A stretch of 64,000 nucleotides of DNA from Apostichopus japonicus (lineage: Eukaryota; Echinodermata; Holothuroidea; Aspidochirotida; Stichopodidae). Numbering within the stretch: the stretch's first letter is position 1; each line of letters begins with the position of its first letter. A program made the position numbers and the translations under genes. Below, piece after piece: positions 14,501-63,100 of the stretch. The notes under the pieces are model-generated. The model made no database searches. It was not told the DNA's origin and was given only the letters and a program-made list of their open reading frames with translations. The DNA is taken from the NCBI RefSeq assembly GCF_037975245.1, contig NC_092582.1:22840577-22904576 (forward strand). The letters are read 5' to 3'.

Positions 14501-17500
14501 ATCTTTATGTTTAGCAGAAGCCCTTTAATAACTGTACTACCAAGCTCAAAGTCTGTTTCTTCAGTGCTATTAACAAAAAAAAGCTGCTATTTGGCACTTT
14601 GGTTTCTATATAAAGAAAAAGAAGGAAAATGAAAGAACAACTTGATTGTACCATGGCACAGTAGAGCTTCAGTGGTTAATTTATTTCAGTGTTTACATGT
14701 ACGTTTAAATGGTAATCGATTCATTCCGGCTTCGGTTATTAATTGATCAAATTTGATCGTAAATTTTCAGTTTTTTTTGTTACGTAGGTTCTTTGTGTTG
14801 CATTTAGTCATTGGGTAACTAGGAAAAAAAAAGGAAAAAAAAAGGGAGATGGCTTGGAAGGAGATCATTCATCAATTAAGAGAATTGTCGATGAGATTTA
14901 AACTTGTTAGGAGAAGGGGTGTGGGGGAGGGGTAGGGAGGGATAAGAGATGGGGAAGAGGGGGTAAGATTTTCACCTGGTCATATTCTTTTCTCTATACT
15001 CGGTATATAGTATATAATGAATTCAAGTGATGTCAATATAAATGTGTTTTATATTGGTTGAATGAAGATATGTGCAATGGGGGGGAGGGGAGGGGATGGA
15101 GGAGAGGCTGTGGAGGGAGGTTGAAACCCAGGATGTGCTACTATTTTGTGGTAGTTTAGACCGATAGTCCGGCATTCCCCTCCTCCCACTGCTCTTACAG
15201 TGCCTGCTGCTATAAGGTTTGGTTTTTTGTGTTCTTAACTCCCATTAATTTTAGAGAAGAAATAATATGTTGAGAAGAACAGGTTCTATGCAATCACACT
15301 GTATTAAAGGGAGTAACAGAGGTGAGGGATATTGCATGAGTAGAGTGGGGAATATAGAAAGGGTGGTAGTGGGTGGTACACAGTATGGGTGGCAGTGGGG
15401 GATGTGGTATGGGTGGTAGTGGGGGATGTGGTAAGGAGAGCAGTGGGGATATAGAAAGGGTGGTAATGGGAGATATGGAAAGGTTGATAGTGGGGTATGT
15501 GGTAAGGGTGCCAGTGGGGGATATGGAAAGGATCGCCGAGGGAGGTATGGATGCGATGGTTGTCGGAGATGTGGAAAGGAGTGGTAGTGGAGATGCGGAA
15601 AGGGATTGTAGTGGGGATGTTGAGAGGTAGAGGTGTGTCAAGAGGGGTGGTCGGTGAGAAATGGAAAGGGTGGATAGGGGGTGCCAAAAGGGGTGGTCGG
15701 TGAGAAATGGAAAGGGTGGATAGGGGGTGCCAAAAGGGGTGGTCGGTGAGAAGTGGAAAAGGTGGATGGGGGTGTCAATAGGGGGTGGTCCGTGAGCTCA
15801 GAGGAAAAGGTGGATAGGGAATGTTAAAAGGGACGGTTGAGGGAAGTGGAAAATGGATGGTAGTTCAGGATGTGAAAGGGGTGGTTGTGGAGGATGTGGA
15901 TAGGGATAAAAGTGGAGCTGTAGAAGGGATGATGTTGTGTCTATGCGCCTGAGAATAATATAAAGAACTGCCCCTATGCAAACGTTGTCAGACTGCCAAC
16001 ACTTCATGTTCGTGTGTGTGCGCTTCTGTTCTTCGCAGGCTCACATCGGATCGGGAACCAGCATCAAAAAGATTGGTATCTTCTTGGACATGTGTGAGGG
16101 GGATGCCAGGGAGTTCCCCTTGGAGATACAAGTGGTCGGCACGGCAAAGGTCAGCGAGGTCATTGGCTTGATATGCTGGCACTACAAAAACGAGGGATAC
16201 GAACCACCGTTAAGGTATGACAGAGATTCTCCCGAGGGTAGAGAAAGTAATTGATATAGAAGCAGTCAGTAGTTCCTAACAATACGTGTTGGTGAAGTAA
16301 CATTGTAAGATGCCTTGGATTTGCTAGACTAGGCTAGGTTTTATAGAATAAGCTTTGCCCTCAGGCTTCTTATCGGGCCTGAGCTTTTTCCGGGAATTCG
16401 CGGAATATCCATGTTTTCTTTTCTACCTCGGGGACAAATACTATTATCCTTACACACTGTAACATACGCAAACTGGAGCCTATACCGCAATTTTTGCAAA
16501 GTTCTGTGATTTTTTTTTTACCAAGGCTCATCACTGTCTTATACATCCTTGGTAATCAGAGGAGATCTACATGAATATTGGAAACAGCTACTTCCTGCCC
16601 GGAAAAAAGGTCTAAGTCAAAGTTCAACGAAAAGTTCTTCAATTCTTGAAGACTTTCAAACTTGTACGATATTAATCTAGTATCAAAGACACACGTAATA
16701 TAAATAGGCTACACAATATTTCTCCCCATTCCAGATAGAAAACCTGACTGAGTTTTGAGATCAATAAATTTGAGGAATTTCAATACATCGTACTACACCA
16801 GTGAGGAAGCAGATCGTTAGTCTGTGTGGTGTTATCGTTAATACCCTCCATTTACTATGGTTTATAATATCCTCATCCAATGTACACAAAAGGTCGATGT
16901 CTCTCGTACAGGACAGGCAATCAGTTAATAGGAAGTGGAAAACTCTGCTCCAAATCAGGATAGTAGAGGACAAAATATTTATTGCCACAGAGGGAAGAAG
17001 GCTTAACTCCAGATGTCTGTCAGTCTGTCTGTCTGTCTGAGGACAGTTCGGTCTAATCAAAAGGGTTAAACAACGTGTCTTTATATATATATAAACACTT
17101 GATATAGGGGGAGGGGAGAAGTCGGGGGGTGGGGGTGGGGGTGGGTTGGCCTGCAATTTTTTCAGGTCACTATTGTAACCATTTTTAAGGCAAATTTTAA
17201 GGATAATACTCGTTTCATTTCTCATTGAGATTTTTTTTTTAAATGAGTGCAAACAATATCAATGATAAAATAAAAAGACTTAAAATTTTATTCCCCATCT
17301 TCCCCCCACCCCCCTCCCTCTTTATTTTCTTCTTCTGCTTTTTATGGGTTATCAAGAATTGTCAAGAGCTCACTTCTCTCAGGACCGAAGGCGTCTGAAG
17401 AGGAACCTGTGAAACTCGTCAAATATTCATTGCGACGACTGGCCCAGTCATCTTCATATCTTGTTTCTGTCAATCACTCGACTCGGTCGACATCGTCGCC

Positions 17501-20500
17501 ATTAATATTCAAAACTTTTCACAGACAGGTCTCTGCTCCGATCATTATCACGACTGCACTTATACGGAATCGTGTTTCACCTCATTTTGTCTCTGTGAAA
17601 ATTGATACTTACATAGTCATTGCTATTATTTTCCCCGCTGCTCCAGTCGCCCCCATCTTATGTATCTTGTTGGTTTAGGGATACCTTCAGAAAACACCAT
17701 CTCGCTGGGATGCTTGCCCCCGCTGGAATTGAGGCGATTGGCTCATCTCTAAATGTGTGATAGACTTGTTAAAGTCACATTTAGGCGAGAGATTATCCAG
17801 TGTACAGTAGTCAATGTGCAGGGAGCCAAATATTATAAAGTTTTGAAACTCATGGAAGTTGTATTATCACGAAGGAAATTTTTATTGTTAATAATTTTAC
17901 AATTATATACAAAAGAAAGAACAGAAATTCCAAAAACGAAAAAGAAGAAAATGGTTTCGTAGGTTTTAAGACATAATTTGATGAACCTAAAATTATCAAA
18001 ACAAGTTTCAAAACAACTTGTTTCTATTTTGTATAATTAGGAGAATATTTCATGTACATTCAAAACACATCCAATAAGTTTTTAAAAAGTGTTAGAGTTT
18101 GGATGGAGGGAAAGATGGACGGGCGGGCTGTCAGTCTGGTGGGGGGGGGGGCGGGCGTGCTGGCCAAAACTAGTAATATTTTAAATTCATGCAACATGCT
18201 CGATGCCTTAGATTGTCTGTGTTTACCGTTGATGGTATTTTCTCTTCTGTTTCTTTATTCTCTAGAGACAGCATTGATAACTACTGTCTGATGATAGCCG
18301 AGGAGGAGGGTGAGGTGGACGATGACTTTCCTGCCCTCGATTGCAAAGAAGCCATCTCTAAATTTGGCTTCAGTACCTTGGCTCTCGTCGAGAAGGCATC
18401 GGTCCTCCCCGATAAGGAATCTCAGGAGTCCGGTAAAGATGAAGCAATAATTGTGAACATGTAAGTATAACTCATCTCATGTCAGAAACTATAGAGAGAT
18501 GGCCTTAGGCATTCACATGTGAATAGATTTGTTTAAATCTGTTGGTAACTCACATGTGAAGATATTGGATATAAGTGGGCAGTCTGGTAGAGGGGGAAAA
18601 TGATTGTGAAGATATGAGTATACTCATCTCATATTAGAAGCTATAGATAGATGGCTTAGGCATTCACATGTGAATACACTTTCATAAATCTGTTAGTAAC
18701 TCACATACGAAGATATTGGATATAAGTGGGCAGTCTGGTACAGAGGGGGCGAAAAAAAATGATTGTGAATATTTGAGTATACTCATCTCATGTAAGAAAC
18801 AATAGGGAGGTGGCTTAGGCATTCACATGTGAATAGATTTTTTTAAATCTCTCTGTAACTCACATGTGAAGATATTGGATTTAATTCGGCAGTTTGTTAA
18901 TACAGGAAAGAAATGATAGCGAACATGCGAGTAGAATCGTCTCATCTGAGAAACCGTAAGGAGACCTTTGGAACGTTGACTTCTCAGAATCGGGAGAGAC
19001 ATTATGAGACACTCATATTGTTGTCCTGCTCTGTCTTTCTTTGTCCTCAGAAAGTCCTCAGATGGAGAGTCCAAGCTTGCGATCGATAATACTCAGGTCA
19101 CTCTCCGAGAGTTGATGAACAAAGCGCTGAAACGGAGGAAGGGAATCATCCCAACGGCAGGTAGAGTCAGCTCAGTTCCGAATGTAGTAAAAATGGAAGT
19201 CACTAAACCTCACCATCATTAATGGTCTCTGCGATGAGAGATAACTGTCATGAACAACTCGCCCCACCCACCCGCCCCTCCATCATTCCCCCCAACCACC
19301 CTCCTCTAAAAGTAGATGACTCAAACCCTACCATGACGAATGGACTCTGTGACAAACAATTTAACCCATACAGCTAAGAAAAATATATCTTATTGCATGT
19401 AGCAGAGATGACAGATATTATGATCCTTCATACACACACACACTCACTCACACACAATGCCTGAAGACTTGATTTAGTCTCAATATGACATCATTGAGCC
19501 ACATGTGCTTCAAATGTTTTGATATCTTTTTTTTCTGCATTCTGCTTTTTAGAGAGACAGGTTGTGTAGTAAGAACCTTTCAACAATAGTGACACACATA
19601 TCCAAAAGATTAGTCTCAAAAAGGTCCAACTTCCTTTCCCCCCCCCCCACCCTCCTTGAAATACAGAATTTGTCATGTTGTCTTTGCACTGTGTTCACAG
19701 TGTAATTGTTTTGTGGACACATGAAGAATATTTTTAGATATCACATTGTAATCACTACATATGACCCCTTGAGAACTTTCACTCTGTAACCTTGAGGATA
19801 AAATTAGAATGATGAAAGTAAAACACGTCTGGAAAAAATGAACTGTCCAAATGAGCCATCTGCACATTTATTTATTTTTCATTTTCAAACGGTTTTTTGT
19901 TTTCTCTGTTTCCTTATGTTTTGAAAGATAAAAGTGCTTTGTTACTAACTGATCCTTTCACTTGTTAGGTCCTGATTACCTGATGGAGAAGGTTAACGAC
20001 CCAGGTGTGTCCCTGGATTTGGACGCTAAGTTGAGTTCGATTGGATGCCTGAACTTTGTGATGGTCAGAGAGCACAGTAAGTTATCACATGTGCGAAGGT
20101 TTGACTCTATTGCCATATATTTTTCATCAGGTTGTATTTTTTTGATATTCTGATTAAAATCTGGTAGTATTCATCCATTACTGGTTACCATGCAGGCCTA
20201 GAATGTCACAATTTTCTGCAACATGCTAAAAAATGCCAGTGCCAAAAAAAACCCAGTTATTTCCAATATCTTTCCTTTAGTAGTAATAGTATTCTACTAC
20301 AAGATTGTGGCAAAGTCTCCTCTCAAACTGTCATGGTATAATTCCCCGAGTAATGATAGACAAACCAAACATGGTCACCAAATATTAAATTTGTGGACCA
20401 TTTTCCAGAGCTAATTTATGTTTTTTTTGGGGGGGGAGGGGAAATTGGGACTGTTTCCTTTCATCCCATCCAATTGTGTTGGTCAAAATTCCTGTTAAAT

Positions 20501-38366: not shown

Positions 38367-40438
38367 TTTTTCTCGTGGAACTGGTACCAGAAATAACAGG
38401 TTCACAATTTTAAGAGTTTTTCATTCCGTATGTGGAAACACGATAACCTCCTAGTCCTAATCCTAAGTAGACTCTGTCCCATACAAATTGCCAAAATATC
38501 GTTGGTTGACTGAAGCAAGTGTTGACACAAATAAGTACGACACAGGAGGCGAATTGAGTGAGAGAAATTGATAACAATTCAAATTTTCAAATCTTTCCAT
38601 AGCTTTGCAATTTCGCGCCAGTCAAATGAATGACATTCAAAGAGGAGGTGTGATGTAGGTAAAGTAAAAACCCTTTCTTTCAATTCCATTCCTTTTCGTT
38701 GCTGAATATAGCAAGCAGAATGTGTTAAAATATTGCTCTGTATGACACTATGAAATGTGTTTGACCCCCGCCCCCGGCCCCCCACACACTAAAGCGTCGG
38801 AATTAACTTCCAACATTCAATGGTTATTTGAACTATGTTAAAGTTAGTAAAACTGGTGGGCATGAGTGCGGTTTCAATCCTAGCAGAATCTGCTTGTAAT
38901 TATTTTCCCTAGTGTTGTTACACACAAAATTGTTAAAATATCATTGGTTAAACCCTAAAAACATTCTGTTTCGGCCTTTCAAGTTATTTATATGAACTAT
39001 TTTGCTGTTTTCATTCCAGCATGTACTCAAAATTACAGCATACTAACGACACGTATGGACGTATCTGGCATCCGTATGGACATCGTTTTTTGGACAAAAT
39101 TTGATTTCACATCACGTCTTTTTAATAACTTTGGTCATGTAACTTTATAATATCTATTTTTATTAGATCACCTAACTATCACTGAAGAAGATTTCAGCTG
39201 TAATCTTGATCATTATTACGAAAAATAGATGATTGAATTCCTCGTACATTATCACGGTAGGCCCCTCTGTTCAAGGTTTATTGGCATTTATAACATTAGG
39301 TTCACAACGTTGGAATTTCGATCACCGAAGTCCTTATTCAGCGGTGATATGTACACATTACCTTAGTCTCATTTTCTACGGTATCTCATAAGTGCCGTCT
39401 ATATTATTAATAAACTTGAAATGTCTGTTGTTTTTCCCTTTACTAGCCTGGCTACTACATATATCCTGATAAAAGCAATTCAGCGATCCGTAGATAAACG
39501 AACAATCATGAACCAATAACTCAAACCATGAACGTCAATTAGTATTGTTCAGGTGTGTGGATGGGGTGGGGGAGGGTGAGGAAGAAATTAAAGTTTGGTC
39601 GAGTGGGAGGAGGCCGGCTGTGGTTCAATATGGATCATTGACCAATTTTCAAGGGCGTCTTCTGATTTGAGTATAGAGTTAGTAGAAAGGGAGAGGGGAT
39701 TGGTGCCAGAGCCACATCAACTATGTCTGGCAAAAACTTTATATGATGGAAGTGAGGATTATTTTAAATAGGTTTTTTAGCCTACCATATCAATACTCAG
39801 GAGTCTCAGGTAATACGAAAATGATCGGATTAGTACTAGGGAATTGGCGGGGAAAGGACTTATATATTAGAGCAGCCATGCATAGTATACGTGTCATTTG
39901 CTGTTTTGGTTTTCTAACATTTGGATCGACTCCCTCGATAGGTCCCATAGATTCAGTTGTAAAAATTATCCAATATCCTTTGAGAGCCAGGCGCGCTCTA
40001 CGAACAATCGCGAGTCATCTGGCCCAATTGTGACACTCTTGTAAATACCCCATAACTCTTTCCCGCCCTTTACATGCATTCTCCGAGACCCCATATTGAC
40101 CCCTGTCCCAGGGTTGAAATTGAAATCCTACCAACGATCATCTACTCCCCCGCTAGGTATTTTCAGCTAATAACACCTATCAATAAACCATTTACACTAC
40201 TCTTGACCAGCTTGGGGTGTTTTCTGCATTTCAGTTCATTAAGGACGGGAAGGCATTTTGTATGTGTGCGGTCAGTACTTGCCAACAACATCGGTGTATA
40301 CATTAACCTGGACCGACTATGTCAATGAGGAGACGCCCTCAAAAACATACCAACCCATGGAAGGTCATGTGAATTCATGTGTAGCACTCAACTCTCATAA
40401 TACTCCTTCAATGTATTTCCTACAACAACTAGTGTCAT
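38367..40438. other. DSN1 upstream region
   Basis: Presumed DSN1 promoter and intergenic DNA. The frame of 96 codons at 39743-40033 has no recognisable features. No repeat family identified. Confidence 0.5.
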
Positions 40439-40446
40439 ATCATAGC

Positions 40447-42204
40447 CATGGGCGGCGAGCGAAATTATTTTTCCCACTTCGACGCGGCCATATTAGCATA
40501 ATGGGCGTGGACTATCGGTCGTTGTTACGGCTTATTGGTCACGTCACAGACTATGCAGTGATATCTCTCGGGTGTTTGTTTGGGTGCTGAAAGTTCTCAA
40601 TTAAGTTACATGTCAGGGATTCTAGTACACGTACCAGTACAATAAATAGTATAGTACAGAGGGACATTGCTATTTAGGCATAGTTATAGCAGGGAGCTGC
40701 TACTCTAACAGTAACAGCTCCCTGGTTATAGTTAATACAGACGCAAGTGACAACTGTTTAATCAAATGGGTAGAATATTTCAAGTCCGTAACAATACCCA
40801 GTAGCGTACGTAAACTAATGATGAAAGCACGTAGGCTCCTTACTGCCGTTTAAAAGGGGGTTCATTTATAAATGAACAAATAATTTAAAATGATGGATAA
40901 AACAATATGGGGCACAATACAATACATGTATCTTTGTAGGTTTTTAGCATTGAAAGGTCAGTGGGCCTACCTGGTGTAATATGAAGTGTAATCATCAATA
41001 CCACGGGAGGTTCATTTATAACTTTTCCAGACCCTGCTCTCACGGGAGGTTCTTTTCCAAACTTTTCCAGACACGGGAGGTTCATAACACATCTAATAAA
41101 CAAACACAGTTTGATTTTGTGATGGAATTTACCTCAAGAGCTCCATAAGACCCGATTGACTGGGAGGAGCAGTCGCACATCATCATGGATCTCATGAAGT
41201 CATGTCTTAGGCCTGAGTATATTAGGCCTGAGTATATTAGCTGAGTATATTATTAAAGAGCTATATACGTAAGAGCTCGAAGTCGAAGTCACAAACTTGC
41301 CGGCCTGTGACGTATTTCATAAGCCACGCCCATGTGGCCGCGTCGAAGTGGGAAAAATAATTTCGCGGGCGGCGATCCGTACTTTCGAGTGGGGGGGGGG
41401 GGGATATGACCTTGTTGACTTTCTAAGCGTATCGCCACCATGGGTTGGCGCGAAGCGTACAAGAAAATTTTGGGATTTACAAACCCTCTAGATGGCCGGA
41501 AACGGCACTTCCCGAGGTTTCCAAGCGGCATATACCGAACTTTAAAATAGGGATATCATGTCCGAAATATCTTATAATCAGGATCCAAAATACTCTTTTT
41601 TAAAATTTCGGGTGTTATTTTGGGAAAATTGCCCCTGTCAATCTTGTTTCAGGCGATAAGTTAGAATGTTCGAGAGCTCTTTTTTATTATTCGATGAAGA
41701 AAATGGCCTCATTCAGGCTATTATAGGCCTATACACATGCAATACACAATTACACATAGTTACATTCCTAGGTACCGATTGCTAGGGCACCCAGGTGAAA
41801 CGTGTATTAAGCATTACCCTGGTAACATGAGATTCTCAGCTATTCGAGGGAACATGTACGTGTGTAGGCCTACTATAGGGCCTATATGAATACTATTAGT
41901 GTGCATATATGTACTATATCAATACCGTGGGCGCAATAATACATTTTGTTATAGGGCCAATGAAGCCTACAGTCAACTATTCTTGCTTTATAAAGACGGT
42001 TTATTTGAAAAGATCGCACTGCGTTTATGGTAGGCGAGATATGAAGCTAAAAAAGAGCTGTACATTCACGATGATGCATAAATGTAGGCATGAAAATATT
42101 CTTATCCCTGGCATTTGGTGGGGGGATATGGTGTATTACATCCCCTCCACCCATTTTCATGGGGGGGATATATCCCCCCTCCCCCCCCAGGATCGCCGCC
42201 CATG
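40447..42204. mobile_element. Composite hAT-like DNA transposon
   Basis: A 1758-bp element starting CATGGGCGGCGA and ending TCGCCGCCCATG, flanked by an exact 8-bp duplication ATCATAGC (40439-40446 and 42205-42212). About 46 bases of the left end reappear inverted at 41323-41368, directly followed by a new GGGCGGCGATCC end. It therefore looks like two related elements joined head to tail. The stretch 41427-41530 resembles 12765-12868 of the element in SIN1. No transposase frame was recognised. Confidence 0.82.
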
Positions 42205-42212
42205 ATCATAGC

Positions 42213-44989
42213 TACCACATTCCTTGTTAGGCTACACGAACAGTGAAATCTAAAAAAGTGGTACATTTTCACTATGTAAACTGCAGTTTTTCAATTCCAA
42301 TATCGCCATTTTGAGTATTATTTTTCCCAAGAATTGAACTGCAGCTAACACGCATGCAGCATATCAGGGCAGTACACAAATGAACATAGGCATGAGAAGC
42401 AGACGACCAGGTTTGTTGTTACTTTGCAACACAAGGATCCTCAGTGCCAACAACGTGAATGAACAAGTCTTTATCATCCAAGGACTACTGACTTGACATG
42501 ATGATGATAATCCATATATGCATGATTGAATCAAAAATAAAAACACAAAAACAGAAGCAAGAAACACAGGCAGAAATATATTATTTGCTAAAATTTTTAA
42601 TACCTGTTTTGTTTGCAATGTATCGTCTCCTTGTGAGAAATCAATTTTTGTCTCGAATTTACATAAGAAAAGAAAAATCTATACTAGACCTCAATGATAC
42701 CATCCGTGTATATTCAATTACGTCATAACATTTCATAACAAAAAATTACTGCTCATGAAACCTGAGTGAAGACCTCTCCTCTCAGTGGTTACTTGCCTTG
42801 ACAGTATATGCAGAACAAGCTTTCAAATAGTTTAGATATTCTAGTATATTCTATACATATATGTATTGCAGATTGTTATATTAGGGAACTGCTACGTAGG
42901 AACTAAGTCTTTCAAAAATTCTTCCAAATCATCTTTAGGTGAAAGATTATAAACACAAAAATTGTCAAGAAGATCATTCTAAGCGACCTAATTCCTCAAA
43001 AGGAACCAGTTTACTCCCTATAGATCATATCAGTCAGAATTGGCTAACACATGAAGCCTGCCACCAGATTGGACATCCCATTTCTACCAGTGAGAAAATA
43101 TTGTGACAATTTCTGTAGATGATCAATGATGATATTGGTTGAACTGTGGTGAAAATCGATATACTGAATCCAGCTTACTGCCTGTATTATTTAATGGTCA
43201 GAAGGAAATCACCTTTTTAAAGGTTCTTTGCAGATAACCTTTGACCTCTTGGTTAGCTGAAATCAGCAATGACATCTTACAGCTAGCTCTGTTAAGTACA
43301 GTGATGTGGTATGGCCAGATGGAAATACTACTGAAAGTTTGGTTTTGGTTTGTATACTACTGATAAGTAGATGTTTGTAAGTACAGTTAAGTGTGAATTT
43401 CATATGCATGTTATTTACTATACAACTTGACTGTATAGGATACCTGCCTAGATATAACAAGTAACCATTAATGACTGAGGTCACACAGGTCTTTTAAATT
43501 GACCAAAGGCAATTAAAAACATTATGAGGTGTGGTGGTGGGGGACTGAATTAGAGGTGGCAACACAACAATTTAACGAAAGACACCAACAATTTAAGGAG
43601 GGCAAACAAATTGTGTCCTGCTAATTGTGATTTTTTTCTGCCTTTTTTACACATATAATGGCAAAGAATTATTAGCACAGCAGTCTGCACATGAATGGTG
43701 TGTCCATTATCTGTCCTTGGGTAAATATGTATAGCCCCACCATGACAGACACCAGCTCGACCAATCAGCGCAAAGTTTCATTAGCATTTCACCTTACTGT
43801 GTTGATCAATGCAAGCATTTTACTCTTCATGTCCACCTGTGTATGACCTGCGTCAGTAAGGATAATTTTTGTGATTTCCCCAGCAGCCATTATTCACAGT
43901 ACTGCCCTTCAATGAAGTATCTGGTACATCTGATAAGCATTGACTCTACCTCCATCAAACCTCACTCCAACCCTCCCCACCCCGCCCCACCATGATCCTC
44001 CCCTCTCCTCAGAATTTGTTTCATGATTGTGTCATTTTAATGACCCGTATAACATTGCCTTGTATTTATTTTTCTTGTAAAATGAAGACCAAAAAAAAAA
44101 AACAGACATTAGACTGTTTCTAAAATCTAAACCCAGCAAGTTTAATAGTTGAGTAGTAAATGAGAAGATGCACAGAGCAGCATGGTCTCTTAATGTATGT
44201 CAGTGCTTGGAACTGAACAAATGATAATTAAAGACTAGTTAGCACACAGACCATCTATTGTCATGCAAAGATCAACTCTTATATTCAGCTAAAGAGATCC
44301 CACTAATTACTCTAATGAGCCGAGATGAAATGCATCAAAGTTTAAAAAAAATAAAAAATGGACAAAAATATGAATTTAAAAGTGAGTTGCCGGGGAGACA
44401 AACAATTTGGTTTTTCTCATGAAAGACATCTCTTGAGGCAAAACAAAATTCAAGCAATTGGAAAAAGGAAGTTGGTGGTGGATGAGGAGAAAAATTCTAA
44501 AGATTTAATTACAGGAAAGTCTGTACTCAACAAGCTATGGATGGTATCAAGGGTAGGACAGTTGTATGGCTTCACGAATCAGAAACTTAATGTGAAAATG
44601 ATGCTTTTTTTTTTATTAATTCGTATTCACGGTACCAAACCATCCCAAACTGTTATTGCAGTGTTTTCCAATCTTTGATACCTTTCAAAGAAGCTACTTT
44701 TTTTCTAAATCTAGCATGCAACTTCAGCATGCGACCAGTGTACAGAGCTGTCCGTTGTAGCAAGTTACAGCATGTGGTACCTGTTATCATGATTGTCACA
44801 AGTAAACTGTAGCGTAACGAGTGATTATCGACTGAAGAATATGTCACTAAACTCGATATTAAGTATATCACAACTTAGACAACACCTAATATCTCTCTCT
44901 GTTCTCAATACATTGTTTTTTTTTGTCAAACTATGTTACAAAACCTTTCCTATAAAAAAAAACAGTGCTATATGGAGTGACTATTTGTT
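42213..44989. other. Intergenic region and ARPC5 3' flank
   Basis: AT-rich. An AATAAA on the minus strand at 44622-44627 could serve ARPC5 but is ~365 bases from its stop. The 106-codon plus frame at 44358-44678 has no recognisable homology. Confidence 0.5.
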
Positions 44990-45052
44990 TCAGATAGACA
45001 TTCTGTCCGTTAGCACACGAAGAATTGAACCGACACCTCCAACAGCATAAGC
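44990..45052 (-). CDS. ARPC5: ARPC5 terminal exon
   Basis: Acceptor CCTTTCGCAG. It encodes [20 protein letters not shown] and TGA, matching human [20 protein letters not shown]. Confidence 0.93.
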   Translation of the reverse strand, partial: AYAVGGVGSILRVLTDRMSI

Positions 45053-48000
45053 CTGCGAAAGGAAAACAAAATCAAAGATGATAAGAAAGAATAAAGAGGT
45101 TGATTTATATCACACATTTATCTCATCAATTATGCATTAAATTATTTCAAAAGTTTGTCAACATTTTTTTTGGTCTTCAAGGTCATCACTGTTGCCCTTA
45201 AATATGCTAGAAAAGTCATATTTAATGGTCACCCAATCCTCAAACTTAAACAAGCAAGTGGTACACTACACATGATAATTATCAGTTTGTATCTTTTACT
45301 ACTCCTCAATGGCCGAGAATAATTCCGGGGATCGCAACCTCGAGACAAGTGGTTTTGAAAATTTGATGCAATTTTTTACTGCGCTGAAATTTGGGAGCAA
45401 ATGATGACTTTTAAGTAGTCCCATTTGAGACATGAATAATCATTTCCTACAGCCAGATAAATCAAATATAAATACATTTGGGTATTTTTTTTTATATTCA
45501 TATCTTCTTTCTATTGTCATTTTTCAAATATTTCAGGAATACTAAATTGCTGATTAAGCTATATCCTGTGCTGTAAAATATAATGTTTACGCTGCAATGA
45601 ATGTGGAACTTCAAAAATATGACACGAATCGGAAGAACGAAAAACCAATAAATGAACCGAAAAACGGATTAACCAATGAACAAAATGCATGGACGGGTTG
45701 AACCGTCAAACTAAGTAAGTAATGAGTATTTGCTATCCACCACAACAGAAAATTGTTCTTTTTTCAAATAAATTGGCTTGTACTGTTCTTTGATAAAGTT
45801 ACCTTTTCATGCCAGGTTAAAAGTATTCCGCAAGTATTATCCTGTGGTGTTTCAAATCCTTTGTAAATAAATTTCATTAATGTGTCCACTTCATCCTTAC
45901 TCAGAGACTGAACGCCCTTCTCAACTTCGCTGGCTTTGAAGGAGGACATGGCTCGTAATGCCAACTCAGTGACCTGTTGATGCAATCAAATCTTTAAAAT
46001 GTCAGGACATTGATGTAAAAATTCATACTTTCTGCTGGGAACTGATTGAATAAGTTGAATGTTTACATTAGTTGAAGATGGAACACGCCACTATGGTAAC
46101 TTACATCATGCTACTAAACTACTAAACTAGTTACATTTCCTTTATAACAGGACATAATTGTGTGCTTGTAGCCTTGTATTGCATGGTGTGGTATTGGGGA
46201 GGGGGCACATTAAGTATAGAGGGTAGAAATTAAACAGAGGACTATCTCATAATTTCCCAGGCAAACTACTGTATGGATCACAGCCTGTGAATATCTACTT
46301 CCCTTGCTGACTCTTGTCATTACTTATACAGTTTGTAACAAAACTTAGTGTACCCCCATCCTGAATAAGAAACGTCTAATGTCGGTAATCTGACCTAGTT
46401 TCAATTGAGGTGTTAGAGAAGTGTTAGACACCACCATCGATCCCAGAAAATACACACACAACTTGCTACTGTCGGTAATTAGACACTAGTGTACAGTCAG
46501 TAATACAGCTGCGGTCAATACCCAAGGCACAGTGTACAAATAATACAGCGATGGACAACTCAGGTCCAGCTAAAGATAACAAGGTATCACGTTTCATTAC
46601 TGTCTGCATTTTGTAGCGAAACAAACAAAATGCAAGCAACAGAAAGTTAACTTTTTCAGATGGCTGCACACGGTTTGGGGCGAGTCTTCAGTGCCTTTAA
46701 ATGATGACACAACAGGTATTTATGTATGTACAAAAAACTGGCCTGTTCTTTCAAAATGGCCAAATTCTAAAATCTCACTCGAACATTTAATTACTAAAAG
46801 TATATACTATAACTGTTGATATCACCCTTTTTCTTTTGTTATTTCTGAACATTGTTCTTTATTCCATTACCCTTTGAAAGATCTCTACCTCTCTTGTTTT
46901 CCTCCAAACCTTCCCGCCCAACCCCCCTCCCCCCTTCCCTTGGTATTTGGCTAATATTGTGGAAATTAACCCAGACTCACATCACTGTTTTAGTTGCTTG
47001 TTCAGGATAGTACTGATTCCACTATCTTAAATAAAACCAAAAGGCAAATTAATTACTTACTTTAACAGCTTTCTGTTTACTGGCTGGTGGGTTAGCAAGA
47101 ATTAGTTTCAAAGCTTCAATATTCTTTTTTGTGAAGCTTCTGTCAAGGTTTCATAATAATCATTAAAACAAAAATAGTGCAAGAAAGAAGTACAAAGGGG
47201 AAAAAATAATATCATTATAGGGAACTTACATGGTATCACTGGTTTGAAAGCTCATTGCGATCTTACTCATGTGAAGACATACTAAGACCCCACTAATAGA
47301 AATATAAATACTTAGGTGACCACAATTTTTCTAGGACACCACTCATATTGACATCATGGGTTGGAAACAACGCTGCATGTTTAAAACGAGGGGTTGTAAC
47401 TTTGGGAGCCTTAAGCTCAGAATAGTGGTGGTTCTGTGTTTCACTGGGCAACTGCCCCATTTTACTAGAATTACCTCATTGAGGAAAAAAGTATTTTGTC
47501 CAAGGCAAATATTAGAAGAAATTTAGAGAAAAACCAATGCCAAAATGCCAGGTGGTAACTTACAGTTTCATTGTTCATTTATGTTTGTTGTTCAATAACT
47601 GCTTATGTTCAAACTAACAGTAACACCATGTAAAGAATGCCAAACAGGTTAACTTGAAATTATTCTGGGCCTTTCTACAAGTACAAGTTTGGGGATATTC
47701 CCATGGGCTAGGCGAACTTTCTTTATTATCAACATGCATACTGTCAATATTGAAGGCATTTAATTTGTTGAATTCTTACGGAATATTTTACTGTAGACAA
47801 AATCATGGGCTCACATGGACCACCGAACAGTTCAAACTTATGACTCAATTTCTGACTATGAGTAAGCCTAACGTTAGGCTTAGGCTAATGCTGCACACAA
47901 TCACAATGTTAGGAAAGGATATGAGTTGATCAAGTTAGCCACCTCCCCTTCGTCTGGACCGCCTTGTGTTTCTTCAACAACGTCGTCTTGAAAATTATTT

Positions 48001-48059
48001 TCGTCAAATTCGTCTACATTTACTTTCCTAAACTTGCTTTCGCCCGTATTTTTTGCCAT
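44990..48059 (-). CDS. ARPC5: ARPC5, Arp2/3 complex 16-kDa subunit (complete, four exons)
   Basis: Encodes the smallest Arp2/3 subunit, which tethers ARPC4/ARPC1/Arp2 in the actin-branching complex. Minus-strand exons: 47923-48059, 47061-47130, 45803-45973, 44990-45052, giving 146 residues (human 151). Exon 1 starts [20 protein letters not shown] and carries GGPDEGEV. Exon 2 gives [20 protein letters not shown]. Exon 3 gives [20 protein letters not shown] and [11 protein letters not shown]. Exon 4 gives [20 protein letters not shown] and stop. The first intron (47131-47922) has AT-AC termini and U12-type signals; introns 2 and 3 are GT-AG. With the AT-AC splice the EGEV...NPP region aligns with human without gaps. 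Divergent from RPL35 163 bases away. Confidence 0.93.
45803..45973 (-). CDS. ARPC5: ARPC5 exon 3
   Basis: Acceptor CATCAACAG, donor GTAACT, 57 codons. It encodes the family core: [20 protein letters not shown] and [15 protein letters not shown], then ILLTWHEK. It is two residues shorter than human at the N-terminal side of this exon. Confidence 0.93.
46368..46700 (-). mobile_element. Truncated inverted copy of the TTAA-flanked MITE
   Basis: Reverse complement of 24021-24387 over most of its length, ending CGAGTCTTCAGTGCCTTTAA. The opposite terminus is missing just outside AAACGTCTAATG. It lies in ARPC5 intron 2. The spurious 67-codon minus frame within it is not a gene. Confidence 0.75.
47061..47130 (-). 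CDS. ARPC5: ARPC5 exon 2
   Basis: Follows CTTCAC (AC acceptor) and ends at GTAAGT. It encodes [20 protein letters not shown] and AVK, aligning with human [24 protein letters not shown]. Confidence 0.88.
47131..47922 (-). other. U12-type AT-AC intron of ARPC5
   Basis: Read on the minus strand, the intron starts ATATCCTTT (47922 downward), identical to the U12 AT-AC donor consensus. It ends CTTCAC (AC at 47132-47131). A branch-point-like CCTTGAC lies at 47148-47142 with its A 12 bases before the intron end, the spacing preferred by minor introns. No GT-AG alternative that I tested keeps both frame and homology. Confidence 0.82.
47923..48059 (-). CDS. ARPC5: ARPC5 exon 1
   Basis: 45 codons plus two bases from ATG (48057-48059). 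It encodes [14 protein letters not shown] and an acidic [13 protein letters not shown], matching the human N-terminus. It ends ...AACTC, directly followed by ATATCCTTT, the U12-type donor consensus. Confidence 0.9.
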
Positions 48060-48222
48060 GTTTTCTTCTGTCAAAGGTAGAGAAATATCAGTTTATTAAC
48101 TTCGTAACAGGTAGGCCAGTCTTCCTAGAAGTATAAAGTGCACTTCCTTATTCGAAGTTGCAAAGCAAAGTTTCCCGTCGAGCGCCATCTCTCTATCTTT
48201 TGGCCGTCTTCTCATAATCAAA
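48060..48222. promoter_or_regulatory. Shared ARPC5-RPL35 divergent promoter region
   Basis: Only 163 bases separate the two start codons, so 5' UTRs and promoters of both genes must fit here. A pyrimidine-rich run at 48188-48201 (TCTCTCTATCTTTT), 22 bases before the RPL35 ATG, is a candidate 5' TOP start as expected for a ribosomal protein mRNA. No TATA box is evident. Confidence 0.6.
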
Positions 48223-48225
48223 ATG
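48223..48225 (+). CDS. RPL35: RPL35 exon 1 (initiator codon only)
   Basis: AAAATG followed at once by GTAGGC. Exon 2 enters in phase 0 with ThrArgLeuLysAla, which corresponds to human AlaLysIleLysAla, so the Met must come from here or from an equivalent upstream exon. Confidence 0.75.
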
Positions 48226-50520
48226 GTAGGCATAACATTGACGTTCGATTTCAATCCTTCTTAATCGTATTTAATTCCGAAAACCATGTGCCTAAAAAGC
48301 GTTTTAATAATGCCTAATTACCATTCGTTTATTTAAGGTTCATTTTGTTATATATTTGGTTGTATTAGAATGAAAAATGAGTTACGATTTGAAATCGCAA
48401 TACATCACTCGCTGTCCATGTCAGCTAGTATTATTGTGTGTAAGCTAGTTCGGAAATACTAGCCTATACTTCAACTAAGTCACATAGGCTCTTCGTCTTC
48501 GTCTTCGATACGGTGACACATCCGCAAAAAGGGACAATATCTCACCACACACACGTCAAGAGAGTAATTAATTAGATCTGACCCGAGTACTGATATAAGT
48601 GACAGGATTCACAGAACCACTGGAACTACTAATGAGGTCTGAAGGCAGACTATTCCAATCCCTAATTGTATTTGGAAAAAAACTATACTTATAGCAATTG
48701 GTACTGGCATACAGCTGGCAGAAATGCATATCATGCATGTTCCGACTCCTACGCAGAGGCTTTCTTAGGCAGTCAATAGGGATCTGAGCCTGACCATAGA
48801 TGCCCTTAGGCGTACCAAATTCAGACGGTCCTTGTTTTACAAAGTTAAAAATAGCCCCCCCCCCCCTCAAATGGAAATAGGCAGCATTTATGTTTTCGTG
48901 GCTCCCATTTCCCATGTCATTAAGGGAAATTCTATTCTACACTAGGCCTAGGAAACCTAGGCCAAGGCTACAACAATACAAGTTTACAACTAAGTTTGGC
49001 TAGCACTAAGTAGTAAGTAACAGGTCTAGTAGTATTACTAGTTTCATGTGTGTGCTTATTTTCCAGTGTCGAAGGGTTATATGAGAAAGCCAGGGGTATG
49101 CTAGTCTTCCAGAGTGGCATTTCTCACAAAATGTTCAGTTCTGAAAAAATGAAAGTAAACCTAGCACAACACATTTACCAGTTCACATGTCGGCTATAGG
49201 CTAGGGCCTAGTCTATGCTGCCAGTGGGACGACTGGGCATGTGCCTGCAAAGTGATCCTTGGATCTAGTTCGGATTATTGTTAATGATACATAGGATATT
49301 GTCATTTCATACAAATGCAAAACATAAGCTATATATCTAGGATGTGCTATTGCAAATTATTATAAAAGAACTGCTGCCAGATATTTTGAAGCCATCGTTT
49401 CGTTGCATTTCAGACTCGCCTGAAGGCTCATGAGTTGCGAGGGAAGAAGAAGGAGGAGTTGGAGGATCAGCTCACACAGCTGAAACAGGAACTGGCACAA
49501 CTTCGTGTTGCCAAGGTAACTGGTGGCCAGGCATCCAAGCTCTCTAAGATGTAAGTTGTTTTTCCAATTTTTACCTTGATGTTAGATAGGCCTAGATTAA
49601 GTTAGGTAGAGGTAGGGTATGGAGAATCTTATTGTACACAAATTCACACTAATCTATAAATTAGTATCAGTATATTAATGATTAAATTAAATTATTGCCT
49701 GCTTTATCTTCATCCTTGGATGCAAAGCATATATGCAACTTGAATTGACATTGTTCGGTTGTTTCATGCCTAGATCTACACACACTCTGTGCACAACTTT
49801 GCAATAGCATGATTTATAACAGTGGTGTGTGAGTCAGCATGTTTCCTCTGATTATGGCAATTTTCAAAACAGCTCTTCCGATTAATTTTTTGAAATTTTT
49901 GGTTTTGAAGACCCTGCATTGTTTCCTCTTAATTAAGAAACACCTAGCTTGCCATATTTTGTGTATATCGATACCTTGTGTATTTCGGGTGTGAAGAAAC
50001 TTCCCAAAAAGGTCCCATGCATACGAAACAGGAAATACCGATTTAAGGTTCAAGAATTATAAAACGTTATTAATAAATAGTTTAAAAAAAAATTGAGTGT
50101 TTTAGCATTTTTGTCTTTAGTTGTGTTTTCTATGTCTTGTTTTCATGTCTCTCTATATTTGTATGTAGATATATTTGTCTGCCTGAAGTAAATTTTGTAT
50201 GTGGTTTAACTTCTTGTTTCTGTGTACAGTGGACTCAAGATTTACCGTCTGAATTCCTTAAATTTCTATTCCTTTCACCCTTCCACAGACGTGTGATCCG
50301 TAAGAGTATTGCCAGGGTGTACACCGTCATGAACCAGAACCGGAAAATGAATCTGAGGAAGTTCTACAAGGACCATAAATACAAGCCTAAAGATCTCCGG
50401 CCCAAAAAGACCAGATGTTGGCGCCGTCAGCTCACCAAGAAAGAGCTCAACATGAAGACACGCAAAGAGACGAGAAGGTTGGCCAGATTTCCACCAAGGA
50501 AATATGCTGTCAGGGCATAA
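48223..50520 (+). CDS. RPL35: RPL35, large ribosomal subunit protein uL29 (complete, three exons)
   Basis: Encodes eukaryotic uL29, which sits at the exit tunnel of the 60S subunit. Exons: 48223-48225 (ATG only), 49414-49550, 50289-50520. The protein is 123 residues, the same as human. Visible: [77 protein letters not shown], and a C-terminus [11 protein letters not shown] ending in TAA. The first coding exon carries only the initiator Met, a common layout in ribosomal protein genes. Intron 1 contains a minus-strand LINE remnant. Divergent from ARPC5. Confidence 0.96.
48566..48915 (-). mobile_element. 5'-truncated LINE remnant (C-terminal end of reverse-transcriptase ORF)
   Basis: A minus-strand frame of 115 codons in RPL35 intron 1 ends with the signature found at the C-terminus of CR1/Jockey-like ORF2 proteins: [14 protein letters not shown] and then [20 protein letters not shown]. 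The reverse-transcriptase core is absent, as expected for 5' truncation. The frame is intact, so the copy may be fairly young. The exact clade cannot be given. Confidence 0.75.
49414..49550 (+). CDS. RPL35: RPL35 exon 2
   Basis: Acceptor GTTGCATTTCAG, donor GTAAGT. It encodes [20 protein letters not shown] and [16 protein letters not shown], diagnostic for uL29. Confidence 0.96.
50289..50520 (+). CDS. RPL35: RPL35 exon 3
   Basis: Acceptor TCACCCTTCCACAG. It encodes [20 protein letters not shown] and [19 protein letters not shown], ending KYAVRA and TAA. Confidence 0.96.
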
Positions 50521-52567: not shown

Positions 52568-52702
52568 ATGGCTCAATCGCAGCAACAACAAAGGGCATTA
52601 CCCCAGAGCAAGGAAACACTTTTGAAGAACTACCAGAGAAGACTCAAACAGGATACTCGATGCATGTTAGACAACTTCCTGGAGATACTTAAAATAGCAA
52701 AG
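52568..52702 (+). CDS. MED22: MED22 exon 1
   Basis: 45 codons from [23 protein letters not shown] matches human [16 protein letters not shown] with a slightly longer Gln run. Donor GTTGGG is weak but fits the phase. Confidence 0.93.
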
Positions 52703-54352
52703 GTTGGGATTTAATATTCAATTTTGAAGTACTCATGTCTTTTCCTTCTTTTAAAAAAGGAGGAATTATGATATCATATAAGTATTGCTTTAACACAGAA
52801 ATTTCAAAATTTGTCTATATACATAGTAAAAACATTATTTAAAGAAGAATGAGAAATTTCTAAAACTTAGTTATTTTTACAGCTCAATTGCCATGACAAC
52901 ACCACAAAATCTAATGTTGCCAGATGCATTCATCAAAGTGTTTTCATATATTAAAATGTTGTTTTTTCCAAGGGTATACAAAATTCTTTTAGGATGTAGT
53001 ATTGACCTAATGGTACAGAAAATTGATTGCACAGGTCTGTAAAACATCAAGTAATCTTGAATTTTTCCAGTTGCTTCCAATAGATTGGTTTGTAACTTCG
53101 TACACATATTTACACATACATTTATAATTGTATATATATATTTTCTGTATTGAATTCTGTTGCTAAGGTCAATCCAGATGGAAAGATACTAACCAGACAA
53201 CTGCAAGCAGAAGAAGATCAGTATGAAATGAATGTGAGGGCAGCAAACATTGTAAGTACCAACATTCAGATGTGTTAAAACCCAATACCATTCACTACAC
53301 ACAGTCCATAATCTTCTTTCCAAAAATATCTTTGCCACAAACTTCGGTCCTAAGTTTCCTTCAAAATGACATCCTCGCAGCAATTGAAGGATTACACACA
53401 AGGAAAGTGAAATACCACTTTCCATGTAAGAACTGCTTTAACACATCACACAGAGACCCTACAAACACATCACACAGAGACCCTACAAACACATCACACA
53501 GAGACCCTATTAACACATCAAACAGAGACCCTATAAACCATGATGCCTTCAGACTTGGTGATTCCGTACCATGGTTTACGTGAGAACATTCTAATTATCA
53601 AACATGCACACAAGATGATTGTACTCGATAAGCTGTTATTGAAATATTGCACCATGTTATGTGCAACAAGAGATTTCTGGACTGTGACCTCTATTTGACC
53701 TCTCATGTTGACAAAACCACCCCATGAGGGTTCTGATACCAAACAAGGGTGGATCCACACACCACATATGAAGTTCATCCAAGCTTCATTAATGTTGTAA
53801 CAAGATTTTTAGATGTTTCCCTCTGTTGACCTCAATGAAAATTGGCTGGCCTCCACAGAAAACAATAGGGTTCTTGTACTTAATAAGATGTATTTACTTA
53901 CAAAATTTGAATTTCATCTGTTATGTATTTGTGGTGTTAACAAGCCAATGTGTCACATACACCTATATATATATATATATATATACCCATACATGCTATT
54001 ACCATCATCTAGATTCATTTTCCTTTGCCAAAAATCTATAAAAACCAGATGAGAGAGCTATGCAATGAATGACCAACGTTAAATACCTTGTTTTGATATT
54101 TCCTTTCACTTTATATCATTTATCTTCCGAAAGGTTCGGGCCGGCGAATCCCTACAGAAGCTTGTATCGGACATTAAGCAGTTCCTAATCCTCAACGATT
54201 TTCCAGCTGCAAACGAATACATCGACGATAGGACAAGGTTCCTGCAGTCGCATCAGAAAGAGGTCGACAACCGGCTTGCAAACCTTCGCGACGAAGTCTC
54301 CGTCGACCTCTACGAAATAGAAGAGGAATATTATGCGTCCAAATATAAATGA
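52568..54352 (+). CDS. MED22: MED22, Mediator head module subunit (complete, three exons)
   Basis: Encodes Mediator subunit 22 (SURF5), part of the head module that contacts RNA polymerase II. Exons: 52568-52702, 53168-53251, 54134-54352, all joined in phase 0, giving 145 residues. Visible: [72 protein letters not shown] and [18 protein letters not shown] with TGA. The start is AAGAAATGG, a good initiation context. The length matches the short human isoform, without the variable C-terminal extension. It lies downstream of RPL35, same strand, and converges on XPR1. Confidence 0.96.
53168..53251 (+). CDS. MED22: MED22 exon 2
   Basis: Acceptor TTGCTAAG, donor GTAAGT, 28 codons. It encodes [20 protein letters not shown] and Ile. 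Confidence 0.93.
53435..53535 (+). repeat. 24-bp tandem repeat in MED22 intron 2
   Basis: ACACATCACACAGAGACCCT followed by ACAA, four copies, the last ones diverged. Confidence 0.9.
54134..54352 (+). CDS. MED22: MED22 exon 3
   Basis: Acceptor ATCTTCCGAAAG. It encodes [20 protein letters not shown] through [20 protein letters not shown] and stop TGA at 54350-54352. Confidence 0.95.
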   Translation, partial: VRAGESLQKLVSDIKQFLILNDFPAANEYIDDRTRFLQSHQKEVDNRLANLRDEVSVDLYEIEEEYYASKYK

Positions 54353-60169: not shown

Positions 60170-63100
60170 CTGCAGAAAGTAGGGGAAAAAACAGAAGGTA
60201 ATTCAAAATATCCTTCCCGTTTTTATCTTCTTCGCTCTCAAGACTTTTCATGTATGCATTCAAGTTAATGGAATTTGACTTGATACAGCTTTGTCTATGA
60301 AAACCACAGCACAACGCTGATTCCTGTGAAATTTTAACCTAAAAGACCCGTCTAAATATTGCGATGTCTTTATCTGTCGTGGTTAAAATATTGACATATA
60401 TCAACATTTGAGATAATTCAGATCAAAATATGAAAGCTGCAAAGGCTTTTAACGTCAATCTATATCGAACTCAGAAGAAGAGTGATTATTATTACTTAAC
60501 ATTTTTTATTCTCAGTGTTTAGTTCATCCTCTGGTTTTTTTTTAAGGATTGCGATGAATAAGTCGTAGGGGGAGGGTGGGGTTGCAGGGGGGGGGAAGGG
60601 AAGCTCCCCTGTTCCTTAATATGAGAGAGAACTCACCATGAATTAGGAGGGGGAGGGGGTGGGGTAGGGTTGCAGGTGGGGGAAGGGAAGCTCCCCTGTT
60701 CCTTAATATGAGAGAGAACTCACCATGAATTAGGAGGGGTAGGGTGGGGTAGGGTTGCAGGTGGGGGAAGGGAAGCTTCCCTGTTCCTTTAATATGGGAG
60801 AGAACTCACCATAAATTAGGAGGGGGATGGGGTGGGGTGGGGTAGGGTTGCAGGTGGGGTAAGGGATGCTCCCCTGTTCCTTAATATGAGAGAGAACTCA
60901 CCATAAATTAGGTATCCTCTTCCTTCTTTCCCAGCTCATCTTATTTTTGGAGAGCGGTATACTGCCCTCGTCGTCCATCATGCCCTCTACCTTGACAGGA
61001 TTGTTCTCATTGCTCTTGGCTGGTTTAATCGAGATGTCCCGGACGGCTCGGAATTGGCCGCAGTTGTTCAGGTGCTCATTTTCAAGTCGAAGGAAGTTCC
61101 ACACGAACCGTCTGGCGGGAAGAAGAGGGTGGGGTGGGGTGAGGGGGGGAGGAAGAAGGAGGAAACTGATTTGAGATTGGTTATAAAGGACACTTTAATA
61201 GCTAGAAGATATCAAGGAGTAGGACAGTTGTCCATGGATATAAAAGGACACTAAAGGGAAATGAGGGACACTTAAATAAGGATATGGAGGACATTAAGGA
61301 ATATGGAGGACACTAACAAAAGGATAAGGAGGACATTAACACAAGGATATGAATGCACTAACAAACAACACGGAGGGCACAGAAACAGATATTAACAAGA
61401 AAACCAAGAGGTTTTGAGATTCCTTGGCATCTACAGTAAATATTACTGTAGGTTCATTGTGTACACTTGGTTCCGACCTTTTATGAATATTAATGTAGCA
61501 TCAACACAAATGTTGTTCCTTGCTATCAGCTCAAGTTTGATGAACAAATTGATATTTTAAAGAATTTGCTTTAAGCTCTACCACTCATTAATATTCATGC
61601 CCCCTCATTAATAGTATTGGGGTAGAATTCCGACTTGCAGCTGGAAGGTTAGGGGGTTCGACTCCTGGCCGGGTCATACTGAAGATTTGTTGAAAATCAC
61701 TCTAAGCCCCGCCCTCTCATTAATATTCATGATATTAGCACCAAAATAAATAGGGATCGTCTACTCATGATGGGTAACCTATGTACCAAGAATGAGATCA
61801 ATCCACCTTGGGATTGCTGAGAAAACCTAATTTCAAGCTTTTTTGCGAAAAACAACACTTAGCCCCGCCCCTCATGAATAATAATGAGATTGGACAAACT
61901 GTCACCATATTCATATAGAGGACTTTCCTCTTGTACCACCAAACCAAGTTCCATGAAAATTTAACTTACGGTTGCGAAGATATTGACATTTGTTGAAAAT
62001 CACTCTAAGCCCCGCCCACTCATTAATATTCATGATATTAGCACCAAAATAAATAGGGATCGTCTACTCATGATGGGTAACCTATGTACCAAGAATGAGA
62101 TCAATCCACCTTGGGATTGCTGAGAAAACCTAATTTCAAGCTTTTTTGCGAAAAACAACACTTAGCCCCGCCCCTCATGAATAATAATGAGATTGGACAA
62201 ACTGTCACCATATTCATATAGAGGACTTTCCTCTTGTACCACCAAACCAAGTTCCATGAAAATTTAACTTACGGTTGCGAAGATAATTGACATTTGTTGA
62301 AAATCACTCTAAGCCCCGCCCACTCATTAATATTCATGATATTAGCACCAAAATAAATAGGGATCGTCTACTCATGATGGGTAACCTATGTACCAAGAAT
62401 GAGATCAATCCACCTTGGGATTGCTGAGAAAACCTAATTTCAAGCTTTTTTGCGAAAAACAACACTTAGCCCCGCCCCTCATGAATAATAATGAGATTGG
62501 ACAAACTGTCACCATATTCATATAGAGGACTTTCCTCTTGTACCACCAAACCAAGTTCCATGAAAATTTAACTTACGGTTGCGAAGATATTGACATTTGT
62601 TGAAAATCACTCTAAGCCCCGCCCACTCATTAATATTCATGATATTAGCACCAAAATAAATAGGGATCGTCTACTCATGATGGGTAACCTATGTACCAAG
62701 AATGAGATCAATCTACCTTGGGATTGCTGAGAAAACCTAATTTCAAGCTTGGCGTCACACACACACAGACACACACACACACATACGCACACACACACAC
62801 ACATACACACGCAGTCATGACCGCATAGATTCCTACGGCTACCGCCAAGGAATCAAAAAGGACACAAGAAAAAGGGATATGAAGGACAGGGAAAGGCTAC
62901 TACAAAGGATATGGAGGCCACTATAACAAGGATATGGAGGACACTAAAAAAGAACTTGAAGGACAGACACAAAAGGATATGGAGGACACTAAAACAAGGA
63001 TATGGAGGACACTAAAACAAGGATATGGAGGACACTAAAAAAGAATATGGAGGACACTTACACAAGGATGTGAGGGATACACACAAGAACAGGATTGGCA

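Follow-up and report, generated by a model that had tools for sequence, protein, structure and literature searches.

The 64-kb stretch of DNA analyzed here (hereafter the window) carries a four-exon ARPC5 gene on its minus strand and, head to head with it on the plus strand, RPL35 (Table 1). The initial annotation had placed its intron in the actin-branching gene ARPC5, and this identification of the host is well founded. Once intron 1 and two GT-AG introns are removed, a complete protein of 146 residues results, which covers the Pfam P16-Arc domain (PF04699) at full length (138.8 bits, residues 9-144 of 146). The same product matches solved ARPC5 chains at 147 bits (1k8k_G) and 145.6 bits (6uhc_G), which we take to be the bovine and human chains, respectively, and ARPC5-like at 134.4 bits.

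Searching the whole genome at the protein level gave three ARPC5 matches, every one of them an exon of the window, and thus no second ARPC5 locus was seen; exon 4 had no separate entry in this search. In the viral_contigs and genome_contigs collections, 10 and 46 pattern matches to ARPC5 relatives, respectively, were found and none was confirmed by tblastn, as expected of virus and prokaryote collections. At the exon 2/3 junction (47061/45973, minus strand), the modelled protein has two residues fewer than the solved ARPC5 chains, and an alignment gap falls there.

Table 1. Coordinates of the ARPC5 and RPL35 features in the window
Feature	Position	Strand	Remarks
ARPC5 coding exon 1	47923..48059	-	ATG at 48059; matches N-terminus of solved ARPC5 chains
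ARPC5 intron 1	47131..47922	-	792 nt, AT-AC, U12-type, phase 2; assigned from sequence motifs and frame
U12-type 5' splice site ATATCCTTT	47914..47922	-	equals published consensus ATATCCTT (PMC2831892)
U12-type branch site core CCTTGAC	47142..47148	-	branch A at 47143, 12 nt to 3' end
3' splice site CAC	47131..47133	-	read from sequence
ARPC5 exon 2	47061..47130	-	joined reading frame; protein search of genome
ARPC5 intron 2	45974..47060	-	GT-AG; modelled intron
ARPC5 exon 3	45803..45973	-	joined reading frame; protein search of genome
ARPC5 intron 3	45053..45802	-	GT-AG; modelled intron
ARPC5 exon 4 with stop	44990..45052	-	stop ends at 44990
RPL35 coding exons (48223-48225, 49414-49550, 50289-50520)	48223..50520	+	two GT-AG introns; 123 aa; stop end taken from open reading frame
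Stretch between ATGs of ARPC5 (-) and RPL35 (+)	48060..48222	.	163 bp; would hold both 5' UTRs and a putative bidirectional promoter

Splice-site and branch-site motifs of ARPC5 intron 1

U12-type introns are rare and are removed by the minor spliceosome, a second splicing machinery of the cell; their donor also allows G as its first base, and their branch site allows G in place of the first A of the pair. The published consensus sequences are ATATCCTT for the 5' splice site and TCCTTAAC for the branch site (PMC2831892). For the distance from branch site to acceptor, 11-13 nt is given as the optimum; termini that mix the two types (AT-AG or GT-AC) are described as disfavoured (PMC3584512).

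The start claimed for intron 1, its end in CTTCAC, and a CCTTGAC element with its A 12 bases from the end can all be read on the minus strand at 47922..47131. The intron begins with ATATCCTTTCC and ends with CCTTGACAGAAGCTTCAC (its tail also written AACCTTGACAGAAGCTTCAC), and exon 2 opens with AAAAAAGAATATTG at 47130. Exon 1 ends in AAC TC and exon 2 starts with A AAA AAG, which gives a phase-2 junction. The donor agrees with the U12-type 5' splice site at 8/8 positions, the branch core fits CCTTRAC at 7/7, and the AT...AC termini are one of the two pairs (AT-AC or GT-AG) typical of the class. Because CCTTGAC starts at 47148, the branch A lies at 47143 and the last base of the intron follows 12 nt later, within the published range; the base preceding the core is A here, versus T in the published site.

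The five modelled GT-AG introns of the window (ARPC5 introns 2 and 3, RPL35 introns 1 and 2, and MED22 intron 1) served as a comparison set. Their donors agree with the U12-type consensus at only 3-5 of 8 positions and their branch cores at 3-5 of 7, compared to 8/8 and 7/7 in ARPC5 intron 1. Introns of the U12 class typically lack a clear polypyrimidine tract. Over the 17 bases that precede the final three, the pyrimidine fraction is 0.47 in intron 1 and 0.47-0.88 in the five GT-AG introns; as ARPC5 intron 2 shares the value of 0.47, this measure does not tell the two classes apart here.

AT-AC introns removed by the major (U2) spliceosome are on record (PMC2831892; PMC8280824), and intron 1 could in principle be one of them. 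However, its donor is the full U12 consensus and its branch core is a 7/7 match at the optimal distance, so that we regard removal of this AT-AC intron by the U2 machinery as exceedingly unlikely.

At the protein level, the join proposed by the initial annotation is free of gaps, as it had claimed: the alignment to solved ARPC5 chains runs without interruption through the exon 1/2 junction, across EGEVDSCLRQGNMTAAL. Residue identity to these chains near the junction is low except in EGEV and AL.

Alternative junctions and chance occurrence of the motifs

To place the proposed junction among its competitors, we enumerated direct in-frame junctions, in which exon 1 is joined straight to exon 2, with donors at 48020..47701, acceptors at 47650..47076, and GT-AG, GC-AG, AT-AC, AT-AG or GT-AC ends. 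Among the 61 in-frame junctions found, no GT-AG junction passed a loose filter (donor ≥6/9, acceptor score ≥9 of 14), which was applied to all 61 and uses crude consensus scores rather than a trained model. The proposed junction attained the joint best alignment score, 365, against the ARPC5 chain taken as human. A GT-AC junction at 47942..47148 ties at 365 without recognisable sites; thus the motifs, and not the alignment alone, decide between them.

If the major spliceosome instead handled this junction, using GT-AG or different sites or including a further small exon, the U12-type motifs would be coincidental. In-frame GT-AG pairs are indeed available (47904..47137 and 47942..47124, for example), and ATATCCTTT occurs five times on the two strands of the window. 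Yet such pairs gain or lose residues relative to ARPC5 and have weak sites: the three best score 344-347 and add 8 or 9 residues or remove 9. The initial statement that GT-AG choices shift the frame or add residues therefore stands in part, since in-frame pairs exist and one of the three best deletes nine residues. Among the AT-AG pairs that use the same donor as intron 1, two add 2 or 3 residues and place the acceptor 6 or 3 nt past the branch A, and a third, with its acceptor at 47080, loses 17 residues.

Chance expectations were obtained from a 2-Mb order-3 Markov sequence. It contained ATATCCTTT 27 times, and at 70 of its 57,339 YAC sites the A of a CCTTRAC lay 10-20 nt upstream. Anchored at the junction, with 30 donor and 30 acceptor places, the joint chance of the motifs is about 4e-7, a figure for which the number of places is the analyst's choice and independence is assumed. 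This low anchored chance argues further against coincidental motifs, and on this basis and that of the direct junctions enumerated we consider splicing of the junction by the major spliceosome very unlikely.

When the junction does not serve as an anchor, such a motif set is not unusual: 40 simulated single strands of 64 kb contained 10 of them by chance. A looser scan of the window gave a second U12-like set at 39973-42813 (plus strand), consisting of ATATCCTTT, CCTTGAC and CAG with mixed AT-AG ends; the simulated rate refers to a stricter motif set than the scan that produced it. In addition, five ATATCCTT sites lie at 62912-63026 (minus strand) with spacings of 23, 23, 45 and 23 bases, apparently as a tandem repeat.

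Minor spliceosomal snRNAs and predicted splicing

The U11 and U12 snRNAs, named by the initial annotation as a check on its reading, were sought in the assembly of 671,581,487 bases (35 contigs) using Rfam cut-offs. Both are present above these cut-offs, U11 at 88.7 bits (cut-off 39) and U12 at 115.9 bits (cut-off 53), and U6atac is found as well, at 104.2 bits (cut-off 33). Each has at least one copy, a lower bound on copy number because scoring covered 40-46 first-look candidates in each search. None of the three gave a match in 14 control genomes, and an Rfam scan of the 64-kb window at gathering scores returned no matches. These results indicate that, of the four snRNAs specific to minor splicing, the genome has retained three or more.

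Predicted pairing was compared between introns. The 5' end of U11, UAAAAGGGCC, pairs with the intron 1 donor at -4.9 kcal/mol, compared to 0 to -4.2 for the five other donors; the RPL35 intron 1 donor, at -4.2 kcal/mol, is nearly equal. The U6atac stretch GAAAAGGAGAG pairs with the intron 1 donor at -6.1 kcal/mol, versus +1.9 to -1.9 for the other five. For U12, computed for intron 1 only, GAGUAAGGAAAA pairs with CCUUG-C at -7.0 kcal/mol with the branch A omitted and at -4.6 kcal/mol with it included.

Together, donor, branch site, distance, frame, whole-protein match and pairing-capable U11, U12 and U6atac uphold the U12-type AT-AC reading. Judged from these features, intron 1, the first in the coding sequence of the single ARPC5 locus detected, is almost certainly a real minor AT-AC intron in phase 2; its human orthologues are most likely the U12-type introns that ARPC5 and ARPC5L carry. 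It would most likely be removed by the minor spliceosome in the usual way: U11 would pair with the donor AUAUCCUUU, U12 would pair with CCUUGAC and leave the branch A bulged, U6atac would then take over the donor from U11, and the minor spliceosome would ligate ...AACTC to AAAAAA.... Gene finders restricted to GT-AG would miss this exon 1/2 junction.

If the intron is retained, the reading frame gives the first 46 residues of ARPC5 followed by YPFLTL and a stop, and the message would thus be shut off. Since retention ends the protein early, poor minor splicing would lower ARPC5, which could amount to a regulatory effect. Minor introns with AT-AN termini are reported to depend on CENATAC and to be retained more (PMC8280824).

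Relation to human ARPC5 introns and gene order

The initial annotation had also proposed a comparison with U12 intron catalogues for ARPC5/ARPC5L orthologues, and U12-type introns have been reported in both human genes. The minor intron of human ARPC5 is described as extremely sensitive to a decrease in U6atac in human cells (PMC3728624). In patients carrying mutated RNPC3, the U12-type intron of human ARPC5L is reported to be misspliced and cryptic U2-type sites to be activated (PMC3958305). Each is likened to the present intron by gene family and intron class; the literature searched gave neither a position nor termini for the two human introns. Because both human genes are reported to carry a U12-type intron, descent of all three from the same ancestral intron is very likely, and we take shared ancestry as the most likely explanation for intron 1. 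Human has ARPC5L as a second paralogue beside ARPC5, whereas a single ARPC5 locus was found here, and a minor intron in that locus is consistent with the intron having arisen before the duplication that gave ARPC5 and ARPC5L. The intron is thus not of a new kind: the evidence for it is good, and it is an unremarkable example of an established class, in genes where such introns have been described before.

PMC10639083 cites conservation of 94% of human minor introns in chicken and of 91% in zebrafish, finds 127 common to human and an acorn worm in its alignments, and gives the AT-AC share of human minor introns as ~26%. The same source describes a bias of minor introns away from phase 0, which the phase 2 of ARPC5 intron 1 fits. 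Conservation is given as only ~20% in invertebrate comparisons (PMC2831892), so keeping a minor intron is not automatic.

The RPL35 product scores 74.8 bits against Pfam Ribosomal_L29, and the head-to-head spacing of 163 bp makes it plausible that RPL35 and ARPC5 share a promoter. Presumably human ARPC5L likewise has RPL35 as its neighbor, also head to head. No paper combining RPL35, ARPC5L and a bidirectional promoter was among the matches listed in a search by term counts.

Elsewhere on the plus strand, open frames at 15964-16254 and 18177-18464 encode parts of the CRIM domain of Sin1/MAPKAP1 (38.7 and 47.8 bits in Pfam), and the start of MED22 lies at 52568-53250, downstream of RPL35 on the same strand (Pfam Med22, 37.8 bits). 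We take the human counterparts of RPL35, ARPC5, Sin1/MAPKAP1 and MED22 all to lie on 9q33-34, and this gene content, with the assumed human head-to-head pair, suggests that the four genes may represent an old linkage. A more speculative and improbable extension is that RPL35 and ARPC5, head to head, make up an ancient unit with the AT-AC intron that has been preserved from before the vertebrate ARPC5/ARPC5L split. In this unit the shared promoter would co-activate a ribosomal protein and an actin-branching subunit while minor splicing would throttle the actin partner only.

RPL35 intron 1 itself contains an open frame at 48568-48936 (minus strand), which has no Pfam match at E 0.1 and whose product looks similar to the C terminus of reverse transcriptases from non-LTR retrotransposons.
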